NCBI GenBank assembly: GCA_013314755.1
Contig: JABUFA010000004.1
Location: 62,001-126,000 of the forward strand
DNA length: 64,000 nt
Direction: 5' to 3'
DNA from: Chthonomonadia bacterium
GTDB lineage: Bacteria; Armatimonadota; HRBIN16
Shown: positions 39,843 through 52,679 of the stretch, in pieces
Position numbering within the stretch: the stretch's first letter is position 1
Layout of the letters: every line of letters begins with the position of its first letter
The notes under the pieces: generated by a model
What the model was told of the DNA's origin: nothing
Databases searched by the model: none
Seen by the model: only the letters and a program-made list of their open reading frames with translations
Program-made: the position numbers and the translations under genes

Positions 39843-41834
39843 ATGGAGGGATTACGGATACCAATGGTTCGGGCATCGCTGGGCGTGCTGATATGGATAT
39901 TTGTTGTGCTGGTGTCTGGCGTACAGGCACGGCTGGAGCCTCGCGATATTCTGATGACGCTGGGTAACATGGAGTACGCCTCCTGGAGCAACATCCCCGA
40001 TGGCTGGTATGAGATAGGTAGTAAGGGTTTTTCATACACTGTTGGGCTCGATTCATCCACGGCATCTCAGGGGCAATCCAGCCTTTATTTTACATGTGAC
40101 CCGGTGGCAGAATACACCAGCTGGGGGATTCGTCTGCCCACAGGCATTGGGCGCAACGGGCTGAAGCGCGGTGACAGGCTCACCCTTACAGCAGACGTGC
40201 GCACAGGCGAAATGAACCGCGCAAAGGTGATTCTGGTTGTTGACGCTTTGCGAGCGGATGGAACCGCCTCTGCGCGAAGTCAGGTAGAGGTGTCGATTCC
40301 CAATCTGCCGTGGCACGGCGTGCGTGTGGACCTTACTGTGCCCGAGGACGCGGCGCTGGTGGGCGTGTCTATCATGGCGGGTATCAGTGCAGGTGGCAGA
40401 GCGCAGTTCTGGGTGGATAATGTTCGCCTCACGAATGGAGAGCAGATAGAGGTTCCTGTGCGCTCTACACGAACAATACCCACCTTTACTTACTTTCGCT
40501 TACACCCCGACGTCTATGAGTCTGCTCGTCGCTATGACAAGGTGATTCTCGCTCCGCAGAACTGGTTGTATGCGCGTCCTCTCAGATACTACAACCCCAA
40601 TATTGAGGTTTATGTGCACTTTAGCGCGGTTTCCACCATCTCCACGCAGGAGGGACAATGGGACCCGCTGGATTACAGCTGGGTGAATCAGAACCGACCT
40701 CAATGGTTCCTGACCGACAGCAGTGGAGTGCGCATTCAGGAGCGTTACTATCCGGGCGCGTATCTGGTGGACATCGGCAATGTCGAGCTTCAACAGAGAT
40801 GGGCGGAGCGGACGGTGCGCTTTGCTCTTCGGTGCGGATTCACCGGAGTTAGCATGGATAACGTGGTAAAAGGGTTCCTGTATGATAACACTTCTACCTG
40901 CTCGCAATACGCCAGCAATGATGCCTATCATGAGGCAATGACCCGGTTTTTGCAGGAGGTAACCACGCGGATACACCAGGCAGGTTTGAAGGCAGGAGCA
41001 AACTTTGGATATGTGTGGACCGCCAGCGAGTATCCTTATAGCGCGTGGATGAACTATGTGGACATGGCGTTGAGCGAGAACTGGGTGCGCTGGTGGTCTC
41101 TGCGCCTGCAATCTTACGGTATGGTAAGCGTGCCGATGCAGATCGAGCACCTGCTGGCCCTGGATAACCAGGGCGACAAGCTCAGTCTGATACAGGGGCG
41201 TGCTACTGAAGCGGAAGTGGAGATGCGTCGCTACCTTTATGGGTTTGCTCTGCTGAACTACAACAGCCGCACCTGCTTTCAGACGGCAAATGCTGGCTAC
41301 ACGGAGATCCCCCACTACCTGAACGATTATGAGCTGGCTATAGGGACGCCTGTCGAACGCTACACCCTGATCGCTGGAGACCTGAGCAATGGCGGGCTAC
41401 TTCGGCGGCGGTTTACCAGAGGGCTGGTGGTGGTCAATACGCACCCCTCACAGGCGTTTGCCGTTACTCTGGATGACAGCTACATCGACGCCGATGGCAA
41501 GCACTATCCGCCGGGCGCGTATAACCTTCCAGCACAACGTGCGCTGATTCTGGCGAAGCCAGCGAATCACCTCGAGATTACCACAAGACAGAGTGTGACA
41601 AACCCCAAACCAGGTGAACAGGTGGTTATCACTGTCAATGTCAGGAACACCAGCGCCCAGACCCTGCGTTCCATCTGGCTGAGAGTGCCTGTAGCGCCGA
41701 ACCTGCGCTACATGGCGGGAAGCGCCAGCTATGGCGGCATGTACGACCCGGCCTGGCGCGTGGTAGCGTGGGTTATCGACGAGCTGCCTGCCGGAGCCTC
41801 CGTTGAGCGCAGTTTCAGCGTTCAGGTGGAATAA
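39843..41834 (+). CDS. secreted putative glycosyl hydrolase (GHL15-like) with C-terminal Ig-like domain
   Basis: 663 residues. A signal peptide follows the start (VRASLGVLIWIFVVLVSGVQA). Residues about 30-200 form a carbohydrate-binding-like beta domain (SSLYFTCDPVAEYTSWGIRL, AQFWVDNVRL). Residues about 215-540 look like a TIM barrel of the hypothetical glycosyl hydrolase 15 type: PQWFLTDSSGVRIQE, GFTGVSMDNVVKG, and DMALSENWVRWW with candidate acidic residues. The last 90 residues (NPKPGEQVVITVNVRNTSAQ) are a DUF11/Ig-like module. ATG 39843 may be leaderless; ATG 39864 is an alternative. Likely role: trimming of the surface glycan made by this locus, or degradation of external polysaccharide. 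Confidence 0.72.
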   Translation: MEGLRIPMVRASLGVLIWIFVVLVSGVQARLEPRDILMTLGNMEYASWSNIPDGWYEIGSKGFSYTVGLDSSTASQGQSSLYFTCDPVAEYTSWGIRLPTGIGRNGLKRGDRLTLTADVRTGEMNRAKVILVVDALRADGTASARSQVEVSIPNLPWHGVRVDLTVPEDAALVGVSIMAGISAGGRAQFWVDNVRLTNGEQIEVPVRSTRTIPTFTYFRLHPDVYESARRYDKVILAPQNWLYARPLRYYNPNIEVYVHFSAVSTISTQEGQWDPLDYSWVNQNRPQWFLTDSSGVRIQERYYPGAYLVDIGNVELQQRWAERTVRFALRCGFTGVSMDNVVKGFLYDNTSTCSQYASNDAYHEAMTRFLQEVTTRIHQAGLKAGANFGYVWTASEYPYSAWMNYVDMALSENWVRWWSLRLQSYGMVSVPMQIEHLLALDNQGDKLSLIQGRATEAEVEMRRYLYGFALLNYNSRTCFQTANAGYTEIPHYLNDYELAIGTPVERYTLIAGDLSNGGLLRRRFTRGLVVVNTHPSQAFAVTLDDSYIDADGKHYPPGAYNLPAQRALILAKPANHLEITTRQSVTNPKPGEQVVITVNVRNTSAQTLRSIWLRVPVAPNLRYMAGSASYGGMYDPAWRVVAWVIDELPAGASVERSFSVQVE

Positions 41835-41893
41835 CACCCTGTGTATTTAGCGGGTTTTTGCCCCGGGTTCTGGTAAAGTTTGGCAGGGGCGTG

Positions 41894-41899
41894 TATAAT
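41894..41899 (+). promoter_or_regulatory. -10 element upstream of the O-antigen ligase gene
   Basis: A perfect TATAAT about 43 nt before the start codon, preceded by TG. No good -35 box is visible, so the call rests on the -10 alone. Confidence 0.35.
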
Positions 41900-41942
41900 G
41901 GGGATACCGCCGTAGTAACGGATGTGTGAGGGGTGCATTTGA

Positions 41943-43529
41943 ATGGGCAACGCGTTCCGGGCGACGGTGCAATACTACTATCAGCTGCTGACGGGATGGT
42001 ATCGCCTTAGCGAGAGGGTGTCGGATTTCGCGAACCTTTCGCGTCGCATCAGCCTGCTTATCCTGCTGGTGAGCCTGGGGATAGCCTACCTGCTTGCGCT
42101 GGCTATCGCGCAGGAGATGTGGATTGGTGTTGGGTTGTTAATGGTGGTATTTGTCGCCCTGCCTCTGTTTGCCCTGCGTCCTGAGTGGCTTATCATCAGT
42201 GTTGCTTTCGCAGTTGCTTCCCTCATTTCACCTGTGTTCTGGGATGTACTGGCTTTTGCCGAGCAGGGGATTACCCTGCCGAACATTCTGGTGTTTTATG
42301 GGATGCTGATCTTGCTGTTTCGGTTTATCCTGTCTCCTGCGTCGGTGCGCCCGTTGTGGAGTACTCCCACAACGATAGCTGTCCTGCTCTTTCTGGTGCT
42401 GTCTGTGGTGTTGCCCTTCCTGTATCATGCCGGCATAGCAGGGCTTTCTTATCGCAAAGAGCTGGCAGAGATACAGCACATGATTTTGTGGCTGGTGTAT
42501 TTTCTGTGCATCAGTTTGTGTACAAACGAGCGTGCCTTCAAGATATTGCAGGTCGGTGTTCTGGCTGTCGCTGCGATTGGCGCTCTGCCGACCATTCTGC
42601 AGGCGCTGGTAGGTGAGCAGGCGCTGTTCTTCCTGAAGCTCACCCAGAAAGACATTCGCCTGGAGCAGATGGAAGGGCTGACACGAGTGATTCCGCCGGG
42701 CGAGAACCTGATGCTGGTAGCGTTTTTCGTCGCTTGGCAAATGGTTGCAGTGTCGTCGGGAGCGAAGCGCCTCGGCTGGAGTGCGCTGACCGCGCTGTAC
42801 GGCTTCGCTTTGCTGATGACGCTCACTCGCCACTCGTGGTTTGCGGTGCTGTTTGGGCTGGGCGTTTTCTGGCTGTTCAGTGATGTTCGCACAAAGGTCA
42901 ACAGCACTATCGTACTGGCGCTGGTGGGTGCTCTGATTGGTTCTGCGGTTCTGCTGGTGCGTTCGCCGGCTGTGAGCAATCCCGATGACTTCTTTGCTCG
43001 TATCTACAGACGTTTTATGAGCACCTTTGCGGAAGACCCCCAGCGCTACGGACTAACGACAGTGAGCTCCGTCGGTCAGCGCGTTTATGAAATGCGGGTC
43101 ATTCTGGACCACATTCCCGACTCACCGTGGATGGGGGTTGGTTGGTCAACCCGTTTGCCACTGAAGATTGCCTGGGAGCCGTATCGTGGGCACACGGTGA
43201 ATATGACAACCTACGTGCACAACTCTTTCTGGTGGATTGTGGCAAAAGGCGGGATTATCGGCACGCTGGGGCTGCTGATACTGTGGGTAACGGGCATCTG
43301 GCGCGGGTATCAGCTGTATCGCAGAGCCACCGACCCGTCGGCGCGCGCATGGCTACTGGCGCTGTGGGTGGGGTTTCTTGGGTTAATATTGGCGGCGCAA
43401 TTTGAACCCGTTTTCTGGATTCGCAACCGGCTTATTGCCGCTGCCCTCACGCTGGCGTTGATGGAGCTAGTATACTACTTCAGCCATCTGCAAGCCAGCA
43501 AAGCACGTTCCGAATCGACAGCCTCCTGA
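41943..43529 (+). CDS. O-antigen ligase / polymerase family membrane protein (WaaL/Wzy-like)
   Basis: 528 residues with about 11-12 hydrophobic helices and one long external loop (about 350-425). That loop carries the family pattern: RVYEMRVILDHIPDSPWMGVGW and later TYVHNSFWWIVAKGGIIGTLG, the H-N-x-F-(x)n-G segment of the Wzy_C/O-antigen ligase domain. It would ligate or polymerise glycan on the periplasmic face. Three bases separate its stop from that of the converging GT4 gene. Confidence 0.85.
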   Translation: MGNAFRATVQYYYQLLTGWYRLSERVSDFANLSRRISLLILLVSLGIAYLLALAIAQEMWIGVGLLMVVFVALPLFALRPEWLIISVAFAVASLISPVFWDVLAFAEQGITLPNILVFYGMLILLFRFILSPASVRPLWSTPTTIAVLLFLVLSVVLPFLYHAGIAGLSYRKELAEIQHMILWLVYFLCISLCTNERAFKILQVGVLAVAAIGALPTILQALVGEQALFFLKLTQKDIRLEQMEGLTRVIPPGENLMLVAFFVAWQMVAVSSGAKRLGWSALTALYGFALLMTLTRHSWFAVLFGLGVFWLFSDVRTKVNSTIVLALVGALIGSAVLLVRSPAVSNPDDFFARIYRRFMSTFAEDPQRYGLTTVSSVGQRVYEMRVILDHIPDSPWMGVGWSTRLPLKIAWEPYRGHTVNMTTYVHNSFWWIVAKGGIIGTLGLLILWVTGIWRGYQLYRRATDPSARAWLLALWVGFLGLILAAQFEPVFWIRNRLIAAALTLALMELVYYFSHLQASKARSESTAS

Positions 43530-43532
43530 AAT

Positions 43533-44660
43533 CTACCTGCCCGCTGTTCGGTGGTATTCTATCGCCTGTTGATAGACCTTACAGGTTTCGGATGCTCGGG
43601 TTTGCCAGCTGAGGGAACCCTGAGCCAGCTGTCGGACATGATGACTCATGCGTTCTCTCAGAGTGTCGTCCTGTAACAGACGGAGCAGGGCATCTGCCAG
43701 AGCCTGGGCGTTGTTTGGCTCCACCACGAACCCGGTTTGACCGTCCTCTACCATCTCCGGCAAGCTTCCCGTGCGGGTGACCACAGCCGGCTTACCGAAG
43801 GCGATGGCGGTTGCCAACACGCCACTCTGCGTAGCTTCCACGTACGGCAGAACCACGATACTGCATCGGGTGAACAGCTCGGCGACCTGCTCAGAGGGGA
43901 TAAAGCGGTCGATCAACTCGCATTGAGGGTCTTTGTTAATGCGCTCGCGATAGGTATGCAGGTCATGCCCCCTTCCGGCGATTATTAATTTCGCCTGTGG
44001 GCAAAGTGGTTTGATACGCTCCCATGCCTCCAGAAGCACTCCCAGTCCTTTGTAGGCGTTGATACGCCCGAAGAAGAGCACGGTGCCCGGTTGCTCTGTC
44101 CATTCGCTTTGCTGCCAGCGCAGGTAGAAGTCGCGCGGTCCATGCGCAATGGCGGTCACTCGTTCCGCACACAGGTCGGGGTAGGCTTCCAGCAGTTGCC
44201 GTCGGGTATCCTGACCGGGCGTGATAATCCAGCCGGCGTGTCGTCTGAGGGCTTCAACCAGCGGGCGGCGGCTGGAGTAGTACTTCATGGTCTCCTCTTC
44301 ACCTAAGTGGGGCACAGGATCGTGTACCGTGAGTACCAGCGGATAGCGGCGCTGGCGGAGCAGTAACCAGATGAGAAAGGGATCGAGGGTTTCCTGGACG
44401 TGAATCAGGTCACAGCCGAAGCGCCGGGTGGCTTGCCAGACCCCTACCGCCCGATGCCACCAGTACAGGGGGTTTTTCAGCTTGATGCGAGTTTCCACAC
44501 GTACGGGCACGGCGGGTTCAATCACCTCACGCCAGCGGCTGCCGACATCGCGCGCTGCGCCTACGGTTGTCACCACGAACAGCCGGTGGTGCTTTGATAA
44601 CTCGTTGATCAGCCCAACGCTTGCGGGCAGGAACCAGTATGCTCCAAAGTAGATACGCAT
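43533..44660 (-). CDS. glycosyltransferase family 4
   Basis: 375 residues from ATG 44658-44660 (MRIYFGAYW); a GTG ten codons upstream would overlap the preceding gene. GT-B fold: N-terminal acceptor domain with HVQETLDPFLIW and TVHDPVPHLGEEE; C-terminal donor domain with VLFFGRINAYKGLGVLLEAW and the EATQSGVLATAIAFGKPAVV segment, which carries the E-x7-E-like nucleotide-sugar site of GT4. Cytoplasmic enzyme adding a sugar to a lipid-linked glycan; donor unknown. It follows the zinc-ribbon-cupin gene by 8 nt. Confidence 0.88.
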   Translation of the reverse strand: MRIYFGAYWFLPASVGLINELSKHHRLFVVTTVGAARDVGSRWREVIEPAVPVRVETRIKLKNPLYWWHRAVGVWQATRRFGCDLIHVQETLDPFLIWLLLRQRRYPLVLTVHDPVPHLGEEETMKYYSSRRPLVEALRRHAGWIITPGQDTRRQLLEAYPDLCAERVTAIAHGPRDFYLRWQQSEWTEQPGTVLFFGRINAYKGLGVLLEAWERIKPLCPQAKLIIAGRGHDLHTYRERINKDPQCELIDRFIPSEQVAELFTRCSIVVLPYVEATQSGVLATAIAFGKPAVVTRTGSLPEMVEDGQTGFVVEPNNAQALADALLRLLQDDTLRERMSHHVRQLAQGSLSWQTRASETCKVYQQAIEYHRTAGR

Positions 44661-44668
44661 CGGAGGGG

Positions 44669-45556
44669 CTACCTGTCCTCCACCTGCCACGAGTAGGGTA
44701 TCTCGCCGGAGTGGGGGTCACAGCGATATTCGTCGGGGTCGGCGTAGTCGTAGAGGCGCGTGGGGAAGTTAAGGATGCCGGCTCCCTCGGAGGATAGCGC
44801 CATGAAGCCATGCCACACCCGCTCGGGAATCTGCACCAGCAGGGGGCGTTCGGGCGTCAGGATAATCTCGTTAATCATGCCGCGCGTAGGAGAGCCTTCT
44901 CGCTCATCGTACAGGACGACCTTTGCCGTGCCGTACACGCCGAAGAAGTGGTCCTTTTGCTTCAGGTGCAGATGCCAGCCCTTCACCACGCCGTAGTTGA
45001 CGTGGGTGATGTATGCCTGCGCGAAGCCGTCGGGGAAGCATTCGCGGTAGATGGGGTCGTCACAGCGCAGAATCTCGCACAGGTTGCCCCGTTCATCGTA
45101 CAGGCGGTTCAGCCGTTTCACGCGCAGATCGTGGATGTAGCGGGTGGCCATGCTGGCGATATGGGGCACGGACAGCTCGCCGGATAGATGCTGGGCACGA
45201 TGTCTGGCGCAGAGATAAAGGTTTCCCTGCGATTCGGGCAGGGGGATGGGTTCGGTTGCGGGTTCAAAGCATCCCACCATCTGGCAGATGTATGGGTTGG
45301 TGCCGCCTGCTCCGCGTTTCGCGGTGGAGCCCTGCGACGTCGCCCGACATACTGCCGAGCAGTAGGGCGCAGTGGGCGCGTATTTTGATACCGTCTTTCC
45401 GCAGGCTGGGCAGGTCACCGTCTCCGTGCTCTGGTGTGCCATGTGGTAGCACTCGTCACTGCAGTAGTATATCCGCTGCGAAGCCAGCCCTGCGCGGCTC
45501 ATCTCCTGCAGGAACTCGCGCCCACAGTATCGACAGCGCATCTGTTTGAGTAGCAT
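44669..45556 (-). CDS. zinc-ribbon modules fused to an RmlC-like cupin
   Basis: 295 residues. The first 120 contain three cysteine/histidine clusters: CRYCGREF with YYCSDEC, CPACGKTV with YCSAVC, and ICQMVGC with LYLCARHRAQH, so at least two and probably three small zinc-binding units. Residues about 145-290 are an RmlC-like cupin (dTDP-4-dehydrorhamnose 3,5-epimerase type): GWHLHLKQKDHFFGVYGTAK, YDEREGSPTRG and IPERVWHGF. The family normally lacks zinc ribbons. ATG 45554-45556 follows AAAGGAGCG. With the GT4 gene it probably makes a deoxysugar or a related acyl sugar for surface glycan; the ribbons could bind nucleic acid or stabilise an assembly. Confidence 0.78.
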   Translation of the reverse strand: MLLKQMRCRYCGREFLQEMSRAGLASQRIYYCSDECYHMAHQSTETVTCPACGKTVSKYAPTAPYCSAVCRATSQGSTAKRGAGGTNPYICQMVGCFEPATEPIPLPESQGNLYLCARHRAQHLSGELSVPHIASMATRYIHDLRVKRLNRLYDERGNLCEILRCDDPIYRECFPDGFAQAYITHVNYGVVKGWHLHLKQKDHFFGVYGTAKVVLYDEREGSPTRGMINEIILTPERPLLVQIPERVWHGFMALSSEGAGILNFPTRLYDYADPDEYRCDPHSGEIPYSWQVEDR

Positions 45557-45568
45557 CGCCCGCTCCTT

Positions 45569-45913
45569 TTAGCCCGGTGGCCAGGTCATCTGCCTGCCGC
45601 CTATCAGATGGATATGCAGGTGAAACACGCTCTGCCCGGCGTGCGGTCCTACATTCGCTACCAGCCGATAGCCTGTCCTGTTTATCTTCATCTCCCGCGC
45701 GATGTGCGCCGCGATGCGAAGCAGTTTGCCAGCCAGCGCATCGTGCTCTTCTTGCAGAGCATCTACATCGGTGATGTGCTCTTTGGGGATAACCAGTATA
45801 TGCACCGGCGCCTGCGGGTTGATGTCTTTAAAAGCGTAAATATGCTCATCCTCGTACACGCAGATAGAGGGTATCTGCTTCTGCGCGATTCGGCAAAAGA
45901 TGCAATCGTCCAT
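45569..45913 (-). CDS. HIT family hydrolase
   Basis: 114 residues. DDCIFCRIAQKQIPS at the N-terminus with one CxxC, and the histidine triad HLHIHLIGG near the C-terminus, identify a HINT-type nucleotide hydrolase that cleaves AMP-linked substrates. I start at ATG 45911-45913, eight bases after GGGAGGGC; ATG 45917-45919 is too close to the ribosome site. This start lies inside the mtaB reading frame (68 nt of overlap). Confidence 0.9.
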   Translation of the reverse strand: MDDCIFCRIAQKQIPSICVYEDEHIYAFKDINPQAPVHILVIPKEHITDVDALQEEHDALAGKLLRIAAHIAREMKINRTGYRLVANVGPHAGQSVFHLHIHLIGGRQMTWPPG

Positions 45914-47216
45914 CCTCATGCCCTCCCAAAGTACTGACCAGTTCACCCATCGCACCGTCGTCGCTCAGGCTCAGCAGGCGTACCCACACCAGCTGCCCTG
46001 CGAGGTGCGCCCCGCCAGCAAACTCGACGGAGACATAGTTATCGGTCAATCCTTTCATCAAGCCGCCTTTACCCTGCTTACCTTCCACCAGCACGCGCAG
46101 GGTGCGTCCCAGTCGTTGCGCCACAAATCGCTCGCGATAGCGTCGACAGAGCTCCGCCAGCTCGTGACTGCGACGCTCCTTCTCGGCGTCGGGCACCTGG
46201 TCTTCCATCTGGGCGGCTGGCGTGCCGGGGCGCGGGCTGAAGCGGAAGATGTGCGCTCGCGCGTACTGCACACTCTCCACCACCTTGCAGGTCTGGCGGA
46301 AGGCGGATTCGTCCTCACCCGGAAAGCCCACCATGATGTCGGTGGTGATGGCTAAATCGGGTATCTTTGTGTATAGTTTTTCCGCCAGGTTCAGTACGTC
46401 CTGCTGGCGATAGGGGCGGTTCATCCGTTGTAGGATGCCGTCGTCCCCGCTCTGCAGGGGGATGTGCAGGTGCGGGCAGACCTTCGGCTCGCTCGCGCAG
46501 ACGTCAATCAGCCTGTCGGTTACCTGCGTCAGTTCAATGGAGCTGATGCGGATGCGCTCCAGCCCGTCGATACGCGCCATCTGCTGGATTAACCCGGCGA
46601 GGTCAACACCGCCGCTGCCCGTGTCCGCGCCGTATGAACCGATAAGCACGCCCGTCAGCACCACCTCTCTAAAGCCCTCGTCCACCAGCCGGCGTATCTC
46701 GTCCAGCACCTCGTGAGCGGGGCGGCTGAACATGCGCGGGCGCGTGAAGGGAATGGAGCAAAAGGAACAACAGACATTACAGCCATCCTGAACCTTCACT
46801 ACCGCGCGGGTGCGTTCATAAGGAGTGCTCAGGGCGCGTGGTGCGGGGTCGCGCTGAACCTCCTTGCGGATGTCGGGGAAGGCGTCCAGCACATAATGCA
46901 CCGTGCGCATCTTGTCGGTGTTCGGCACCACCAGCGCTGCCTCGCCGACGCGCTCCCCACGCAGGATGGTGAACTGCGCGAAACAGCCGGTGAGCACCAC
47001 GCGGGCGCCTGGGTTCTGCCGAGCGGCGCGGCGGACGATTTGCAGGGACTTTTTCTCAGCCAGCTGCGTTACCGAGCAGGAGTTCACCACATACAGGTCT
47101 GCCTGCTCGTCAAAGCCGACCACCGCAAAGCCCTGTTCTTCAAAGCTATCAATGATGCGCTGAGTTTCGTACTGATTGACCTTACAGCCCAGCGTGGTAA
47201 AGGCGACGCGAATCAT
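45846..47216 (-). CDS. mtaB: tRNA t6A37 methylthiotransferase MtaB
   Basis: 456 residues. An N-terminal UPF0004 domain with TLGCKVNQYE, NSCSVT and LTGCFAQ supplies the three auxiliary-cluster cysteines; the radical SAM motif is in DGCNVCCSFCSIPF (C-x3-C-x2-C); a C-terminal TRAM domain follows. It adds a methylthio group to N6-threonylcarbamoyladenosine at tRNA position 37. The TRAM domain should end near GELVSTLG; the last 25 residues run over the start of the HIT gene in another frame and look like a read-through tail. Confidence 0.94.
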   Translation of the reverse strand: MIRVAFTTLGCKVNQYETQRIIDSFEEQGFAVVGFDEQADLYVVNSCSVTQLAEKKSLQIVRRAARQNPGARVVLTGCFAQFTILRGERVGEAALVVPNTDKMRTVHYVLDAFPDIRKEVQRDPAPRALSTPYERTRAVVKVQDGCNVCCSFCSIPFTRPRMFSRPAHEVLDEIRRLVDEGFREVVLTGVLIGSYGADTGSGGVDLAGLIQQMARIDGLERIRISSIELTQVTDRLIDVCASEPKVCPHLHIPLQSGDDGILQRMNRPYRQQDVLNLAEKLYTKIPDLAITTDIMVGFPGEDESAFRQTCKVVESVQYARAHIFRFSPRPGTPAAQMEDQVPDAEKERRSHELAELCRRYRERFVAQRLGRTLRVLVEGKQGKGGLMKGLTDNYVSVEFAGGAHLAGQLVWVRLLSLSDDGAMGELVSTLGGHEDGRLHLLPNRAEADTLYLRVRG

Positions 47217-47434: not shown

Positions 47435-48208
47435 CTACTCTACCATGGTGGACAGGGCGAGTGCAGGCATTTCAGATGGCTGAAGACCCAGCAGGTGCTG
47501 AGCGATGCGCACCACTTCGCCCACTATCAGCGTGGCGGGGGCAACGCAGGGAATATCCTCGTCCAGCAGGGTCTGCAGGGTTCCCCAGTATACGCGCTGG
47601 TCGGGTAGAGTGCCGTTCTGGACAACGGCAACAGGGGTGTCTGCAGCTCTTCCGTGACGTATCAGCGCTTCGGCAATGGGTTTGAGGTTCTGCACGGGCA
47701 TCAGGAAGATGGCGGTGGGCAGATGGGAGGCGGCTTGCCAGTGCGACGGCTCATCGTCGGCAGTGCTCCCCGTGAACACACCGAAAGCGCGCGCTAAACC
47801 ACGAAAGGTGACAGGGATGCCTGCGCTGGCAGGCACTGCAATGGCGGAACTGACACCGGGCACGACCTCGTACGGGATACCAGCCTGCGCCAGCGCGAGA
47901 ATCTCCTCACCACCCCGACCGAACACGAAGGGGTCACCTCCCTTCAGGCGTACCACCTTTTTGCCGGCACGTGCACTGGCAATCATGCGCTGGATAATCG
48001 CCTGCTGGCGTGCGGTGCTGTCCTCGCCGTGCTCCTTGCCCACGTATTCACAGTGCGCGCCGGGCGGTGCATACGCCAGCACCAGAGGATGTACCAGCCG
48101 GTCGTACAGCACCACATCCGCGCTTTGCAGACAGCGTATTGCCTTCAGCGTGATGAGTTCAGGGTCGCCCGGTCCGGCGCCGACGAGATATACTTTACCT
48201 GTCGCCAT
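47435..48208 (-). CDS. cobA: uroporphyrinogen-III C-methyltransferase (SUMT)
   Basis: 257 residues. The SAM-binding start VYLVGAGPGDPELITLKA, RLKGGDPFVFGRGGEE, and VPGVSSAIAVPASAGIPVT are diagnostic. It dimethylates uroporphyrinogen III to precorrin-2, the first step to siroheme. It overlaps the precorrin-2 dehydrogenase gene by 14 nt and ends the sulfate operon. No cobalamin genes are nearby, so its job here is siroheme for the sulfite reductase. Confidence 0.95.
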   Translation of the reverse strand: MATGKVYLVGAGPGDPELITLKAIRCLQSADVVLYDRLVHPLVLAYAPPGAHCEYVGKEHGEDSTARQQAIIQRMIASARAGKKVVRLKGGDPFVFGRGGEEILALAQAGIPYEVVPGVSSAIAVPASAGIPVTFRGLARAFGVFTGSTADDEPSHWQAASHLPTAIFLMPVQNLKPIAEALIRHGRAADTPVAVVQNGTLPDQRVYWGTLQTLLDEDIPCVAPATLIVGEVVRIAQHLLGLQPSEMPALALSTMVE

Positions 48209-48854
48209 ATCCGCTCGATGTTTCCTCCCGTACCAGGTTCATAAAGACCGTATGCGCCTGCTCCTGTTGATTGCGTTCCAGCAACTCGGGCACGCCGGAG
48301 TCCAGTACCTTCTGCCAGAACCTCTGCCGACGCTCATAACCCGTCATGTGCTTTTTTACCAGCGCGCGTCGCTCGCCCAGAAACTGCGCCAGTAAGCCAA
48401 TCGCCTCTGACAGAATCTGATGCCGAATCTGGTCGCGCAACCGCTGTGCCAGAAGCGGACTACAGCCCGAAGTGGAAACCGCAATCTGCACCGGACCACT
48501 GCTCGCGATTGCCGGCGTGATGAAGTTACAGTGCTCTGGCTCGTCGACGGCGTTGAAGAGATGATTCTGGGAGTGCGCCCACTCGTATAGCTGGCGATGA
48601 AGGGCGGGGTCATCGGTGGCGGCAATCACCAGGAAGCGCCCATGCATGTCTTCAGGCTGGCAGCGGCGACGCACCCAGTGAAGAACGCCCTGCTGGTGCC
48701 AGTGCTGAATCCGTTCGGTTGCTTCGGGGGCGATGACCGTCACTCTTGCGCCGGCGTCCAGCAGGGCACGAACCTTTTCGGTTGCCACCTTTCCTCCGCC
48801 TATCACCAGGCAATCGCGTGCCTGCAGGTCAAGGAACACCGGGTAATAGCCCAT
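48195..48854 (-). CDS. precorrin-2 dehydrogenase / sirohydrochlorin ferrochelatase (CysG N-domain type)
   Basis: 219 residues. YPVFLDLQARDCLVIGGGKVATEKV is the NAD-binding start; FNAVDEPEHCNFITPA and VSTSGCSPLLAQRLRDQI are typical of Met8p/CysG N-terminal domains. It oxidises precorrin-2 to sirohydrochlorin and may insert iron. Three bases separate it from the reductase gene; it overlaps cobA downstream. Whether it also chelates iron cannot be read from sequence. Confidence 0.93.
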   Translation of the reverse strand: MGYYPVFLDLQARDCLVIGGGKVATEKVRALLDAGARVTVIAPEATERIQHWHQQGVLHWVRRRCQPEDMHGRFLVIAATDDPALHRQLYEWAHSQNHLFNAVDEPEHCNFITPAIASSGPVQIAVSTSGCSPLLAQRLRDQIRHQILSEAIGLLAQFLGERRALVKKHMTGYERRQRFWQKVLDSGVPELLERNQQEQAHTVFMNLVREETSSGYGDR

Positions 48855-48857
48855 GTC

Positions 48858-50483
48858 CTATCCCTCCACTACTTCGGCAGGTGCCGGGGGCAGCGGGGGC
48901 ATCTCCACTCCCTCGGCGAACTGCACCTGCATCAGCGATGCCAGCTCCTCGTCGGTGTGGCGGTCAACGAAGTCGCTGAAGTCCTCTTCCGGGTCGCGCA
49001 GGGCAAGGTAGTTGTTCAGCAGACGCTCCAGCGCGACCTTCACCTCGCTGGCGGGCACTTTGCGCCAGATGGGGCGAACGAAACGGGCATCCCTGCCCAG
49101 CCGGCCGCCCAGTGCGATGTCGTAGCCCTCTACCTTCTCATCGCCTACCCGTACCAGGCATCCCTGGAGCCCGATGTCGCCAATGTGGTGCTGTCCGCAA
49201 TCGTTGGGACAGCCATTCAGGTTGATGCGGATGGGTTCGTCCAGCGGGACGGTGCGCTCCAGGTGTTCCACAATCTCCACAATCAGTCGCTTCGTTTCGG
49301 TGATAGCCAGATTGCAGAACTCGTTGCCCGTGCACGCTACCGCCGCGCGTCGGAAGGGCGTGGCTTCGTGCGGCAGGTTTACCTTTTGCAGTTCGGTAAG
49401 CAGGGTATCCACACGCTGGGTCGGCACGTAAGGGATAAGCAGGTTCTGCTGGTTGGTGGTACGCACGATGCCCTGACCGAACTCTTCCGCCAGCGATGCT
49501 ACCGCCAGCATCTGTTCGGCGCGGATGCGTCCACTCAACACCGCCACGCCCACCCAGTTCAGCCCCTGCTGCTTCTGTGGATGGACGCCGATATGGTCGC
49601 GGTATACCCGGTACGGCTCTTCCCACTCGATGGCAGGCTCGGGTGTCCAGTCCAGCCGGGCACGTACCTCCTGCTCGAACCGCTCGATGCCCCAGTCCGC
49701 CACCAGGAACTTCAGGCGGGCGCGTTTGCGGTTGTCACGATAGCCGAAGTCGCGGAAAATCTCGGTAATGGCGCGGATGACGTCCACGAGCTTTTCCGGC
49801 GGCACGAACATATTTAGCTTCTGGGCAAACATGGGGCGGCTGCTCAAGCCCCCTCCGACGCGCACGTGGAAGCCGTACTCCCATTCGCCGTTCGCCCTGC
49901 GGCGGCGCACCGCGGTTGCCCCCACATCGTTAATTTCGGGCTGGGCACAGTGCACCGCGCATCCCGCCACGGACATCTTGTACTTGCGCGGCAGGTCAGA
50001 GAACTCGCGATTGTTCAGGAAGTAGCGAGTCACCGCCAGCACATAGGGGCGACCGTCCAGAATCTCGTCGGGGTCTATGCCTGCGACGGGACAGCCGACC
50101 ACATTGCGTGTGATGTCGCCACATGCACCAGACGTTGTTAGTCCGACGCTGTGTAACCGTTCGAAGACATCGGGCATATCCTCAATGGTAAGCCAGTGGA
50201 ACTGGAAGTTCTGGCGGGTGGTGATGTCCGCAAAGCCTTGCGCGTACCGTTCGGCAATCTGCCCCAGCGTGCGCATCTGTTCGGCGGTCAGCTCGCCGCC
50301 GGGTATCTTCACGCGAAGCATGAAGTGCCCAACTTTGGGCTTCTGCTCGTACAGCCCGTACCAGCGGAAGCGATACAGGTCGTCTGGCGGGATGGAGCGG
50401 TAGCCGGTGCGGGCGTATCGGAGGATATCCTCGTAGACATCCAGCCCGTCTTTCTCCTTTTTGATGCGTTCCTGTTCCAGCAT
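48858..50483 (-). CDS. siroheme/[4Fe-4S] sulfite (or nitrite) reductase
   Basis: 541 residues with two ferredoxin-like half domains and two siroheme-binding domains, as in NirA/Sir. The cluster ligands are Cys384 and Cys390 in ACTGNEFC and Cys425 and Cys429 in NGCPNDCG. N-terminal TTRQNFQFHW and the siroheme-contacting segments are normal. Sulfite and nitrite reductases cannot be separated by motif; the neighbours sat and cysH point to sulfite to sulfide. Reductant is likely ferredoxin since no flavoprotein subunit is encoded nearby. Confidence 0.93.
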   Translation of the reverse strand: MLEQERIKKEKDGLDVYEDILRYARTGYRSIPPDDLYRFRWYGLYEQKPKVGHFMLRVKIPGGELTAEQMRTLGQIAERYAQGFADITTRQNFQFHWLTIEDMPDVFERLHSVGLTTSGACGDITRNVVGCPVAGIDPDEILDGRPYVLAVTRYFLNNREFSDLPRKYKMSVAGCAVHCAQPEINDVGATAVRRRRANGEWEYGFHVRVGGGLSSRPMFAQKLNMFVPPEKLVDVIRAITEIFRDFGYRDNRKRARLKFLVADWGIERFEQEVRARLDWTPEPAIEWEEPYRVYRDHIGVHPQKQQGLNWVGVAVLSGRIRAEQMLAVASLAEEFGQGIVRTTNQQNLLIPYVPTQRVDTLLTELQKVNLPHEATPFRRAAVACTGNEFCNLAITETKRLIVEIVEHLERTVPLDEPIRINLNGCPNDCGQHHIGDIGLQGCLVRVGDEKVEGYDIALGGRLGRDARFVRPIWRKVPASEVKVALERLLNNYLALRDPEEDFSDFVDRHTDEELASLMQVQFAEGVEMPPLPPAPAEVVEG

Positions 50484-50500
50484 GGTGAAGACTCACCTCC

Positions 50501-51223
50501 CTATCCTGACCTGACGTGCAGACCACACTCTTTCTGTTCGGGAGTTTCCCACCACCAGCGTCCGGCGCGGATGTCTTCGCCCGGCTGGATGGCGCGAGTG
50601 CATGGCGCACAGCCAATGCTGGGAAAGCCTCTATCGTGAAGCACGTTGTACGGCACGTTGTGGGCGCGGATATACTCCCACACCTGTTCTTCACTCCAGT
50701 CAGCCAGCGGGTTGAGCTTCAGGATGCCGCCATGCGCATCGTCCACCTCTACCTTGGGGATGCTGGCGCGGGTGACCGCCTGCTGCCGGCGCAAGCCGGT
50801 AATCCACGCCTGTAATCCCTGCAGGGCGCGTCCCAGCGGCTCGACCTTTCGGATGTGGCAGCATTCCTTGCGGTTTTCCACCGACAGGTAGAAGGAGTTC
50901 GCGCCTTTGGTGCGCAGGAGCTGTTCTACCAGTGCGGTCTGCGGGAAGTACACTTCGAACTCGATGTGGTAGCGCTGTCGGCATCGCTCCATCACGTCAT
51001 AGGTTTCCTGGTGGAGCCTGCCGGTGTCCAGCACGAAGATGCGCGGCTGGGGGGTAATCTTCACCAGCATATCCACCAGCGCCACGTCCTCCGCGCCGAA
51101 GCTGCACGCCAGCGCCATCCGATTGCCAAACTGCTCCACCGCCCACTTCAGCAGTGCCTGCGGGGGCAGAGCCTCAAACTGAGCGTTCAGGCTGTCGATG
51201 TCCGTTGGTAATAATGTGTTCAT
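50501..51223 (-). CDS. cysH: adenylylsulfate (APS) reductase, [4Fe-4S] type
   Basis: 240 residues. The cluster motif is complete: Cys121-Cys122 in KECCHIRK and Cys205, Cys208 in GCAPCTRA, which marks the APS-specific rather than PAPS-only group. Catalytic Cys233 is in KECGLHV. SFGAEDVALV (about 41-50) is the nucleotide-binding loop. It makes sulfite directly from APS, so no APS kinase is needed, consistent with the absence of cysC in the operon. It lies 15 nt after the SemiSWEET-like gene. Confidence 0.95.
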   Translation of the reverse strand: MNTLLPTDIDSLNAQFEALPPQALLKWAVEQFGNRMALACSFGAEDVALVDMLVKITPQPRIFVLDTGRLHQETYDVMERCRQRYHIEFEVYFPQTALVEQLLRTKGANSFYLSVENRKECCHIRKVEPLGRALQGLQAWITGLRRQQAVTRASIPKVEVDDAHGGILKLNPLADWSEEQVWEYIRAHNVPYNVLHDRGFPSIGCAPCTRAIQPGEDIRAGRWWWETPEQKECGLHVRSG

Positions 51224-51238
51224 GCCGTAACCTCCTGC

Positions 51239-51535
51239 CTATAGTCCAAGTGTTGTGTTGCGCAATCGTTCATAGTATCTGCGTCGCCAGCGATAGTAAA
51301 GCACCTGCAGGAGCAGAGTAACCCTCAGCATCAGCCCGCCAAGGAATCCCCATGCCAGCACGTACTCCCCGCGCGAGTGGCTGTACAGCATCAGCAGAAA
51401 CCGCCCCGTGACGTTCAGCAGGGGGAAGAGCAGAGCGAACTCTTCCGCCTCCTTGACGCGATAGAGCCGAATCAATTGAGGCAGGTATGAGCCCTCCATC
51501 AGCCACATCGCGACCGTTGCGACCCACTGCCACAT
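51239..51535 (-). CDS. SemiSWEET-like PQ-loop membrane protein
   Basis: 98 residues with three hydrophobic helices (about 1-17, 33-50 and 57-80). The first helix ends in YLPQLIRLYRVKEAEEF, a PQ-loop motif, and the length fits the three-helix SemiSWEET family, which dimerise to form a small-solute channel. It lies between sat (1 nt apart) and cysH (15 nt apart) on the same strand. No sulfate permease gene is in the operon. Transport of a sulfur compound is a guess; family members known to me move sugars. Confidence 0.65.
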   Translation of the reverse strand: MWQWVATVAMWLMEGSYLPQLIRLYRVKEAEEFALLFPLLNVTGRFLLMLYSHSRGEYVLAWGFLGGLMLRVTLLLQVLYYRWRRRYYERLRNTTLGL

Positions 51536-51536
51536 G

Positions 51537-52679
51537 CTAAACGCTCCCTACTGTCATGCTTTGAACCAGCACCTGAGCCACTTCTGGGCGGGTGAACTCG
51601 GGCGGCAACGGCTTCCCTTCGCTGAGCAGTCTGCGTACCTGCGTGCCGCTGAGGTTAATCCTTGCATCCACATCGTGCGGGCAGGTCTTAACCGACGCCA
51701 TTCCTCCACAGCGTGTGCAGTAGAAGGTGTGGTCAAAGAACAGCGGCGTGATGCCCAGTTCGCCTGGCTGGAAGTGCTGGAAGACGTGATGCGCGTCGTA
51801 GGTTCCGTAGTAGTTCCCCACGCCAGCATGGTCCCTGCCGACGATGAAATGGGTGCATCCGTAGTTGCGCCGCACGATGGCATGGAAGATGGCTTCTCGC
51901 GGTCCGGCATAACGCATTGCCGCTGGATTTACCGCCAGCACCACCCTGTCGGCGGGGAAATAGTTTGCCAGCAGCGCCTCGTAGCAAGCCATCCGCACCT
52001 CGGCGGGGATGTCGTCCGATTTGGTCTCACCCACGATGGGATGGATCAGTAACCCGTCTACGATTTCCAGCGCGCACTTGATAATGTACTCATGAGCGCG
52101 ATGTATCGGGTTGCGGGTTTGGAAAGCCACCACTGTGCGCCATCCGCGCTGGGCAAACTGCTGGCGTGTCTGCTGAGGGGTCAGACGGTAGGCGGGAAAG
52201 TCGCGATGCTGTGGCAGCTGAAGGACTTCCACCTCGCCCGCCAGATACACCTCGCCCTGGGCGTACAGGGCGGCGACGCCGGGATGGGCACTATCGGTGG
52301 TGCGGAAGACGCTTTGCGCCTCGCGCTCCTTATCGTAACGGAAGCGTTCGCGCACGTGCAAAACAGCCAGCGGAGTGCCATCCGGAGCACTGAGTCCTAC
52401 CGGGGACCCCTCCTTCACCGCTGATGCTACCTCGTGCGATACCGCCAGCGTGATGGGGATGCTCCACGGTGTACCATCGCTCAGGCGCATATCGTCCAGC
52501 ACGCTGTGGTAGTCGCGCCGGGTAAGGAAGCCGTACAGCGGGGTGTATCCCCCGTTGCCCAGCAGTTCCACGTCCGATACCTGTCTGTGCGTCAGGCGAA
52601 TGGTGGGCAGATGCGCGAACCGCTGTAACCACTCGCTTCGCCTCGTTTCGTCGTTTACCCGCAGAGGGCGTAAGTCCAT
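51537..52679 (-). CDS. sat: sulfate adenylyltransferase
   Basis: 380 residues; the monofunctional (ATP sulfurylase) form without an APS kinase tail. [11 protein letters not shown] and GRDHAGVG are the nucleotide-binding motifs, and [18 protein letters not shown] holds a zinc-type cysteine set. It activates sulfate to APS. First gene of the six-gene operon; a promoter and a near-palindromic operator lie just upstream. Confidence 0.96.

Follow-up and report, generated by a model that had tools for sequence, protein, structure and literature searches.

A non-canonical RmlC-like cupin behind three N-terminal Cys/His clusters in a Chthonomonadia bacterium

Analysis of a 64,000-nucleotide stretch of a Chthonomonadia genome (the window) revealed one gene in which three N-terminal Cys/His clusters precede a cupin of the RmlC type. 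We consider it probable that the product is a non-canonical RmlC for dTDP-L-rhamnose whose N-terminus has been extended in two layers, with the zinc ribbons as accessory parts. The cupin would epimerize dTDP-4-keto-6-deoxy-D-glucose en route to dTDP-L-rhamnose, with H195 as the base. The first layer would be a C4...CxxH finger added at the N-terminus and common to the genus; the second would be a pair of C4 treble-clef ribbons resembling the zinc ribbons of YacG and HNH nucleases, placed ahead of the old start codon in this lineage only. The ribbons would hang off a flexible linker, probably as an accessory module for binding or stability.

The gene, its start site and its locus

The gene is a minus-strand open reading frame, from a single assembly of 88 contigs, and it lies among the following features:

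44669..45556, minus strand: whole fusion gene, 295 aa, as an open reading frame read from the sequence (also G000:C33:106672-107556)
45563..45568, minus strand: Shine–Dalgarno sequence AAGGAG preceding the ATG at 45556, read from the sequence
45569..45955, minus strand: HIT-domain gene upstream of the fusion gene, syntenic in congeners (domain match and synteny)
43533..44660, minus strand: GT4 glycosyltransferase gene downstream of the fusion gene (domain match and synteny)

The initial annotation had read three Cys/His clusters and an RmlC-type cupin in one gene, and the reading frame, the positions of the clusters and a PF00908 match are all present. The AAGGAG, graded as strong, lies directly past the HIT stop codon and a few bases before the ATG. 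In seven congeners the gene is found at the same site, in the order MtaB–HIT–cupin, and encodes exactly 217 aa; these proteins start with M(S/N)(R/L)SAxGTNP and carry the third cluster only, followed by the cupin. In the present genome an extension of about 78 residues, containing clusters 1 and 2, separates the HIT gene from the position of the homologous start; the codon there is GCG, versus ATG in the congeners. An internal start that would yield a plain cupin was rejected, as there is no ATG, GTG or TTG at the homologous position, and none was found in frame between codons 48 and 92. The extension is read in frame because the old start position no longer holds a start codon, and the view that this is one gene rather than a start artefact was upheld.

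An assembly or sequencing artefact that fused two genes appears extremely unlikely. The sequence is known from the one assembly in 88 contigs, and no independent record of it was found, but the insert has the correct syntenic neighbours on either side (HIT and cupin), is free of stop codons, follows a clear Shine–Dalgarno sequence and has the composition of its host (61.1% GC in the extension versus 61.2% in the remainder of the gene). No misjoined source is visible, because the insert occurs nowhere else in the genome. The fusion looks like a real, slightly unusual, single gene.

Downstream, the GT4 gene probably starts at the ATG at 44660 rather than at the GTG at 44690. GT4 and Wzy_C genes (43533-44690 and 39843-43529) lie beside the conserved MtaB–HIT–cupin block and are themselves much less conserved (62-63% for GT4 versus about 86% for MtaB). 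Wzy and GHL15 genes on the strand opposite to the cupin occur in the window and not in the congeners. A sulfate-assimilation row (47435-52679, minus strand) comprises genes for ATP sulfurylase, PAPS reductase, sulfite reductase and sirohaem synthesis.

The cupin and the rhamnose pathway

The C-terminal half of the protein carries the following features:

44669..45142, minus strand: RmlC-like cupin, residues 139-295 (profile match; model pLDDT mostly above 90; 3ejk at TM 0.86 by target length)
44951..44974, minus strand: metal-cupin motif 1, H195-x-H197...D202 (alignment; motif definition from PMC3765361)
44810..44812, minus strand: H249, third His of the cupin motif (alignment)

The PF00908 profile matches residues 141-272 with 46.1 bits (curated cut-off 27); the canonical RmlC equivalog TIGR01221 (NCBIfam rmlC) gives 32.4 bits, below its cut-off of 155.75. 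Structure searches with the cupin model returned 3ejk at the top and then RmlC-type epimerases, and 3ejk is also the closest PDB sequence. We place the cupin in the RmlC superfamily, as a non-canonical member. The catalytic base His of RmlC is kept as H195, which is unchanged across relatives. The Lys position is taken by D202 (H203 in one alignment) and the Tyr position by F264 or T266, depending on the alignment, and neither residue is kept. A late Asp, which we take to be another RmlC feature, aligns with S283. The roles of His, Lys and Tyr in RmlC have been described, with K74 and Y134 as the Lys and Tyr (PMC9095892). The chemistry may differ from that of RmlC because these two residues are replaced. 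The initial annotation, which proposed an RmlC-like sugar epimerase and named absent catalytic residues as grounds for abandoning its reading, thus holds for the fold and the His, and not for the Lys and Tyr.

On sequence alone, G189...H195-x-H197-x4-D202-x6-G209 follows the pattern of metal-cupin motif 1, G(X)5HXH(X)3,4E(X)6G (PMC3765361), with Asp replacing Glu, and H249 is present. The HxH...D...H set is nearly invariant in relatives, and K192, W194, H195, H197 and G209 are invariant in all 76 of 76 sequences. The HxH...D...H pocket may hold a metal ion.

The cupin could act otherwise on a nucleotide-linked 4-keto sugar, either as a zinc-dependent C3 epimerase like the CapF cupin or as a 3,4-ketoisomerase like FdtA and QdtA, although we think this unlikely. 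The K192-G-x-H195-x-H197 stretch resembles Lys285-Gly286-x-His288-x-His290 of the CapF zinc cupin (PMC5393024), FdtA too has a His-x-His pair, which was chosen for mutation (H49N/H51N structure 2pam), and the fusion cupin matches the Cap5F (2e-7) and QdtA (2e-6) profiles, with Pfam Polysacc_synt_C and FdtA near cut-off. These parallels have to be set against the nearest PDB sequence and fold, 3ejk, which belongs to the RmlC superfamily, and against the genome content and the rml neighbours of relatives. The genome encodes RmlA (513 bits), RmlB (435 bits) and RmlD (312 bits), each above the curated cut-off, and the fusion protein is its sole PF00908 protein. The fusion gene stands apart from rmlA, rmlB and rmlD, which are on other contigs.

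Neighbourhoods outside the genus link the family to the pathway. Of 25 bacterial relatives outside the genus, 14 have a homologue of rmlA, rmlB or rmlD within 1.5-5 kb of the cupin-family gene; among 80 viral relatives 13 do, and some of the RmlB matches there are weak (about 25% identity). Such homologues were found at none of 26 control loci, and none were seen in tiles of the window or of five congener stretches. On a Priestia plasmid, RmlA, RmlB, RmlD, the cupin and a glycosyltransferase are encoded consecutively, an order that we take to resemble that of spsIJKL in B. subtilis. The spsIJKL genes are the rhamnose genes of that organism (PMC7439481). Genome content and neighbourhood together lead us to infer that the cupin half most likely performs the RmlC step.

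Elsewhere in the phylum, 33 of the 35 relatives that have both RmlD and the cupin family of the fusion gene are without a canonical RmlC; the associations of the cupin family with RmlD and with canonical RmlC are, taken alone, not significant (Fisher p 0.20). It is suggested that non-canonical cupins fill the RmlC step across the phylum. Among 61 phylum relatives, RmlD is above cut-off in 55 and canonical RmlC is present in only 6. Two further families of the phylum have the cupin and RmlD genes directly side by side on one strand (G043:C219:1127-2517 and G039:C137:12689-14046), and viral contigs (L070-L149, for example L070, L074 and L076) carry the cupin family with RmlA, RmlB and RmlD in apparently complete dTDP-rhamnose sets.

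The N-terminal clusters and their two layers

The clusters and the extension are located as follows:

45449..45535, minus strand: ribbon 1, C8-x2-C11...C32-x3-C36 (sequence; hairpin then helix in the model)
45347..45412, minus strand: ribbon 2, C49-x2-C52...C66-x3-C70, YacG-like (profile and sequence matches; hairpin then helix in the model)
45200..45286, minus strand: third finger, C91-x4-C96...C116-x2-H119 (kept in 8 of 8 gene-carrying members of the genus; none found beyond the genus)
45323..45556, minus strand: lineage-specific N-terminal extension, residues 1-78 (missing from seven congeners; no close relative in its own genome, the congeners or the phylum)

The Cys and His residues concerned are 8, 11, 32 and 36; 49, 52, 66 and 70; and 91, 96, 116 and 119 (123). 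Residues 1-125 contain so many C-x(2-4)-C or C-x2-H pairs that just 0.14% of whole-protein shuffles reach the count, and 2.25% reach it when the N-terminus alone is shuffled. A phmmer search matched ribbon 2 to YacG structures (E 1.7e-4); the YacG profile PF03884 gives 19.3 bits, below its cut-off of 25.5, with the N-terminus alone and over the first half of the profile only. Clusters 1 and 2 match the HNH family PHROG 1271 (E 8e-6) in its zinc-ribbon part only, and the HNH catalytic motif is absent from the fusion protein. Structure prediction, one of the checks that the initial annotation had proposed, gave the hairpin-then-helix form for both ribbons in an AlphaFold2 model built from a deeper alignment (an earlier model from a shallow alignment was poor, with pLDDT 62). 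Residues 61-90 form a low-confidence or disordered linker in this model (pLDDT 30-44). The N-terminal clusters look like genuine zinc-ribbon/treble-clef modules, with ribbons 1 and 2 resembling the YacG/HNH type, and the ribbons probably bind structural zinc.

A cupin match (E up to 1e-15) was obtained in 121 of 291 phylum genomes, and outside the genus it comprises the cupin only. No alignment from outside the genus reaches the third finger, the lowest query start being residue 104; no cluster of that type was found in the upstream parts of the extra-genus loci that were read, and two or more upstream Cys pairs were found in 0 of 80 viral relatives. The complete architecture of three clusters and cupin had no other carrier among the 291 phylum genomes or the genome, viral and plasmid collections searched, consistent with the initial impression of an unusual N-terminus. 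In these comparisons the third finger characterizes the genus, and clusters 1 and 2 are confined to this lineage, represented by one genome. What had been described as a zinc-ribbon array therefore contains modules that look real but is not one unit: one finger is genus-wide and two ribbons are lineage-specific.

Two further congeners, G004 and G008, were set aside as uninformative, as the gene was not found there; the G004 contig stops about 300 bases past MtaB, probably at an assembly gap. Because the host species is the most divergent among the sampled congeners, the genus by itself does not separate gain here from loss in the other congeners; the absence of ribbons 1 and 2 in all outgroups favours gain rather than loss. 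No separate ribbon gene was found just upstream of the cupin in congeners, and a donor of the two ribbons was not found in the same genome, 60 relatives, the 291 phylum genomes or the phage, plasmid and viral collections. The only viral hit, L156, was rejected as a ribbon relative; it shares the CRYCGREF stretch only, within a different protein.

The extension might be a passenger with no selected function, acquired recently when a piece of a small gene of the zinc-ribbon or HNH type came to lie before the cupin. Its restriction to a single lineage, the HNH nuclease family as best profile match for clusters 1 and 2 and the junction at the disordered linker would all fit such an origin. In the other direction, the strong Shine–Dalgarno sequence, the lack of a start at the old position, the intact Cys spacing of both ribbons and the host-like composition suggest that the extension is translated and undecayed, and the donor gene was not found. 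A neutral passenger is a plausible reading of the fingers, and so is an accessory module that serves binding or stability; as an overall explanation, we regard the passenger as doubtful.

The initial annotation had proposed a moonlighting regulator that senses nucleotide sugars or a scaffold for a glycan enzyme complex, next to the GT4 gene. Such a protein, whose zinc ribbons would bind nucleic acid or a partner protein while the cupin senses nucleotide sugars, seems quite improbable to us. Ribbon 2 does resemble YacG, a gyrase-inhibiting zinc protein, and the ribbons of HNH nucleases, and the ribbons have no other known function. However, relatives without the two ribbons hold the same locus, the ribbons occur in one genome only and the sequence carries no signs of DNA binding. 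Nothing was found to support the sensor, and the genome context points to ordinary dTDP-L-rhamnose synthesis. The scaffold likewise found no support, and is weakened by the neighbourhood in congeners, as three of the seven stretches have no GT4 gene adjoining the cupin (one of the three ends soon after). It is highly improbable that the lineage acquired the zinc-ribbon array as a control on its only rhamnose epimerase, acting through bound nucleic acid or a bound partner protein; if true, sugar supply would be coupled to another process.

We thus return to a non-canonical RmlC with accessory ribbons. Catalysis is expected to proceed without ribbons 1 and 2, because other phylum genomes, including the seven congeners, have the cupin without them. 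The protein would show how a housekeeping sugar enzyme can grow step by step at its N-terminus, by adding zinc modules at a gene junction. More testable is a second point: in this phylum, in Priestia, on haloarchaeal plasmids and on viral contigs, the RmlC step seems to be carried out by a widespread RmlC-like family that has neither the Lys nor the Tyr of the textbook enzyme.

Comparison with known systems

The fusion protein shares with RmlC (dTDP-4-dehydrorhamnose 3,5-epimerase, PF00908 / TIGR01221) the cupin fold, a PF00908 score above cut-off, the position of the catalytic His (H195) and a genome with RmlA, RmlB and RmlD. It differs in lacking the active-site Lys and Tyr, in having Ser283 in place of the late Asp, in scoring far under the TIGR01221 cut-off and in possessing both HxH...D...H and N-terminal zinc modules. 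The proteins of about 155 aa named 'dTDP-4-dehydrorhamnose 3,5-epimerase family protein' (from Priestia, Haloarcula, Eisenbacteria and other loci; PDB 3ejk) belong to the same cupin family, with about 30-54% identity, and often lie beside rml genes, but are without N-terminal fingers; 3ejk moreover has Lys where the catalytic His aligns.

The C-terminal cupin of CapF (Cap5F), which is epimerizing and holds zinc, has the same Lys-Gly-x-His-x-His stretch, whereas CapF is an SDR–cupin fusion with a different substrate and weak sequence similarity (2e-7). The 3,4-ketoisomerases FdtA and QdtA share the HxH pair and the cupin fold, but they are shorter and their profile similarity is weak, and the context of the fusion-cupin family is one of rml genes. 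Ribbons 1 and 2 follow the CPxCGK...YCSxxC treble-clef pattern of YacG and of the HNH-nuclease zinc ribbons (PHROG 1271); unlike those proteins, the fusion protein has neither the C-terminal tail of YacG nor an HNH motif, and its ribbons are joined to a cupin.
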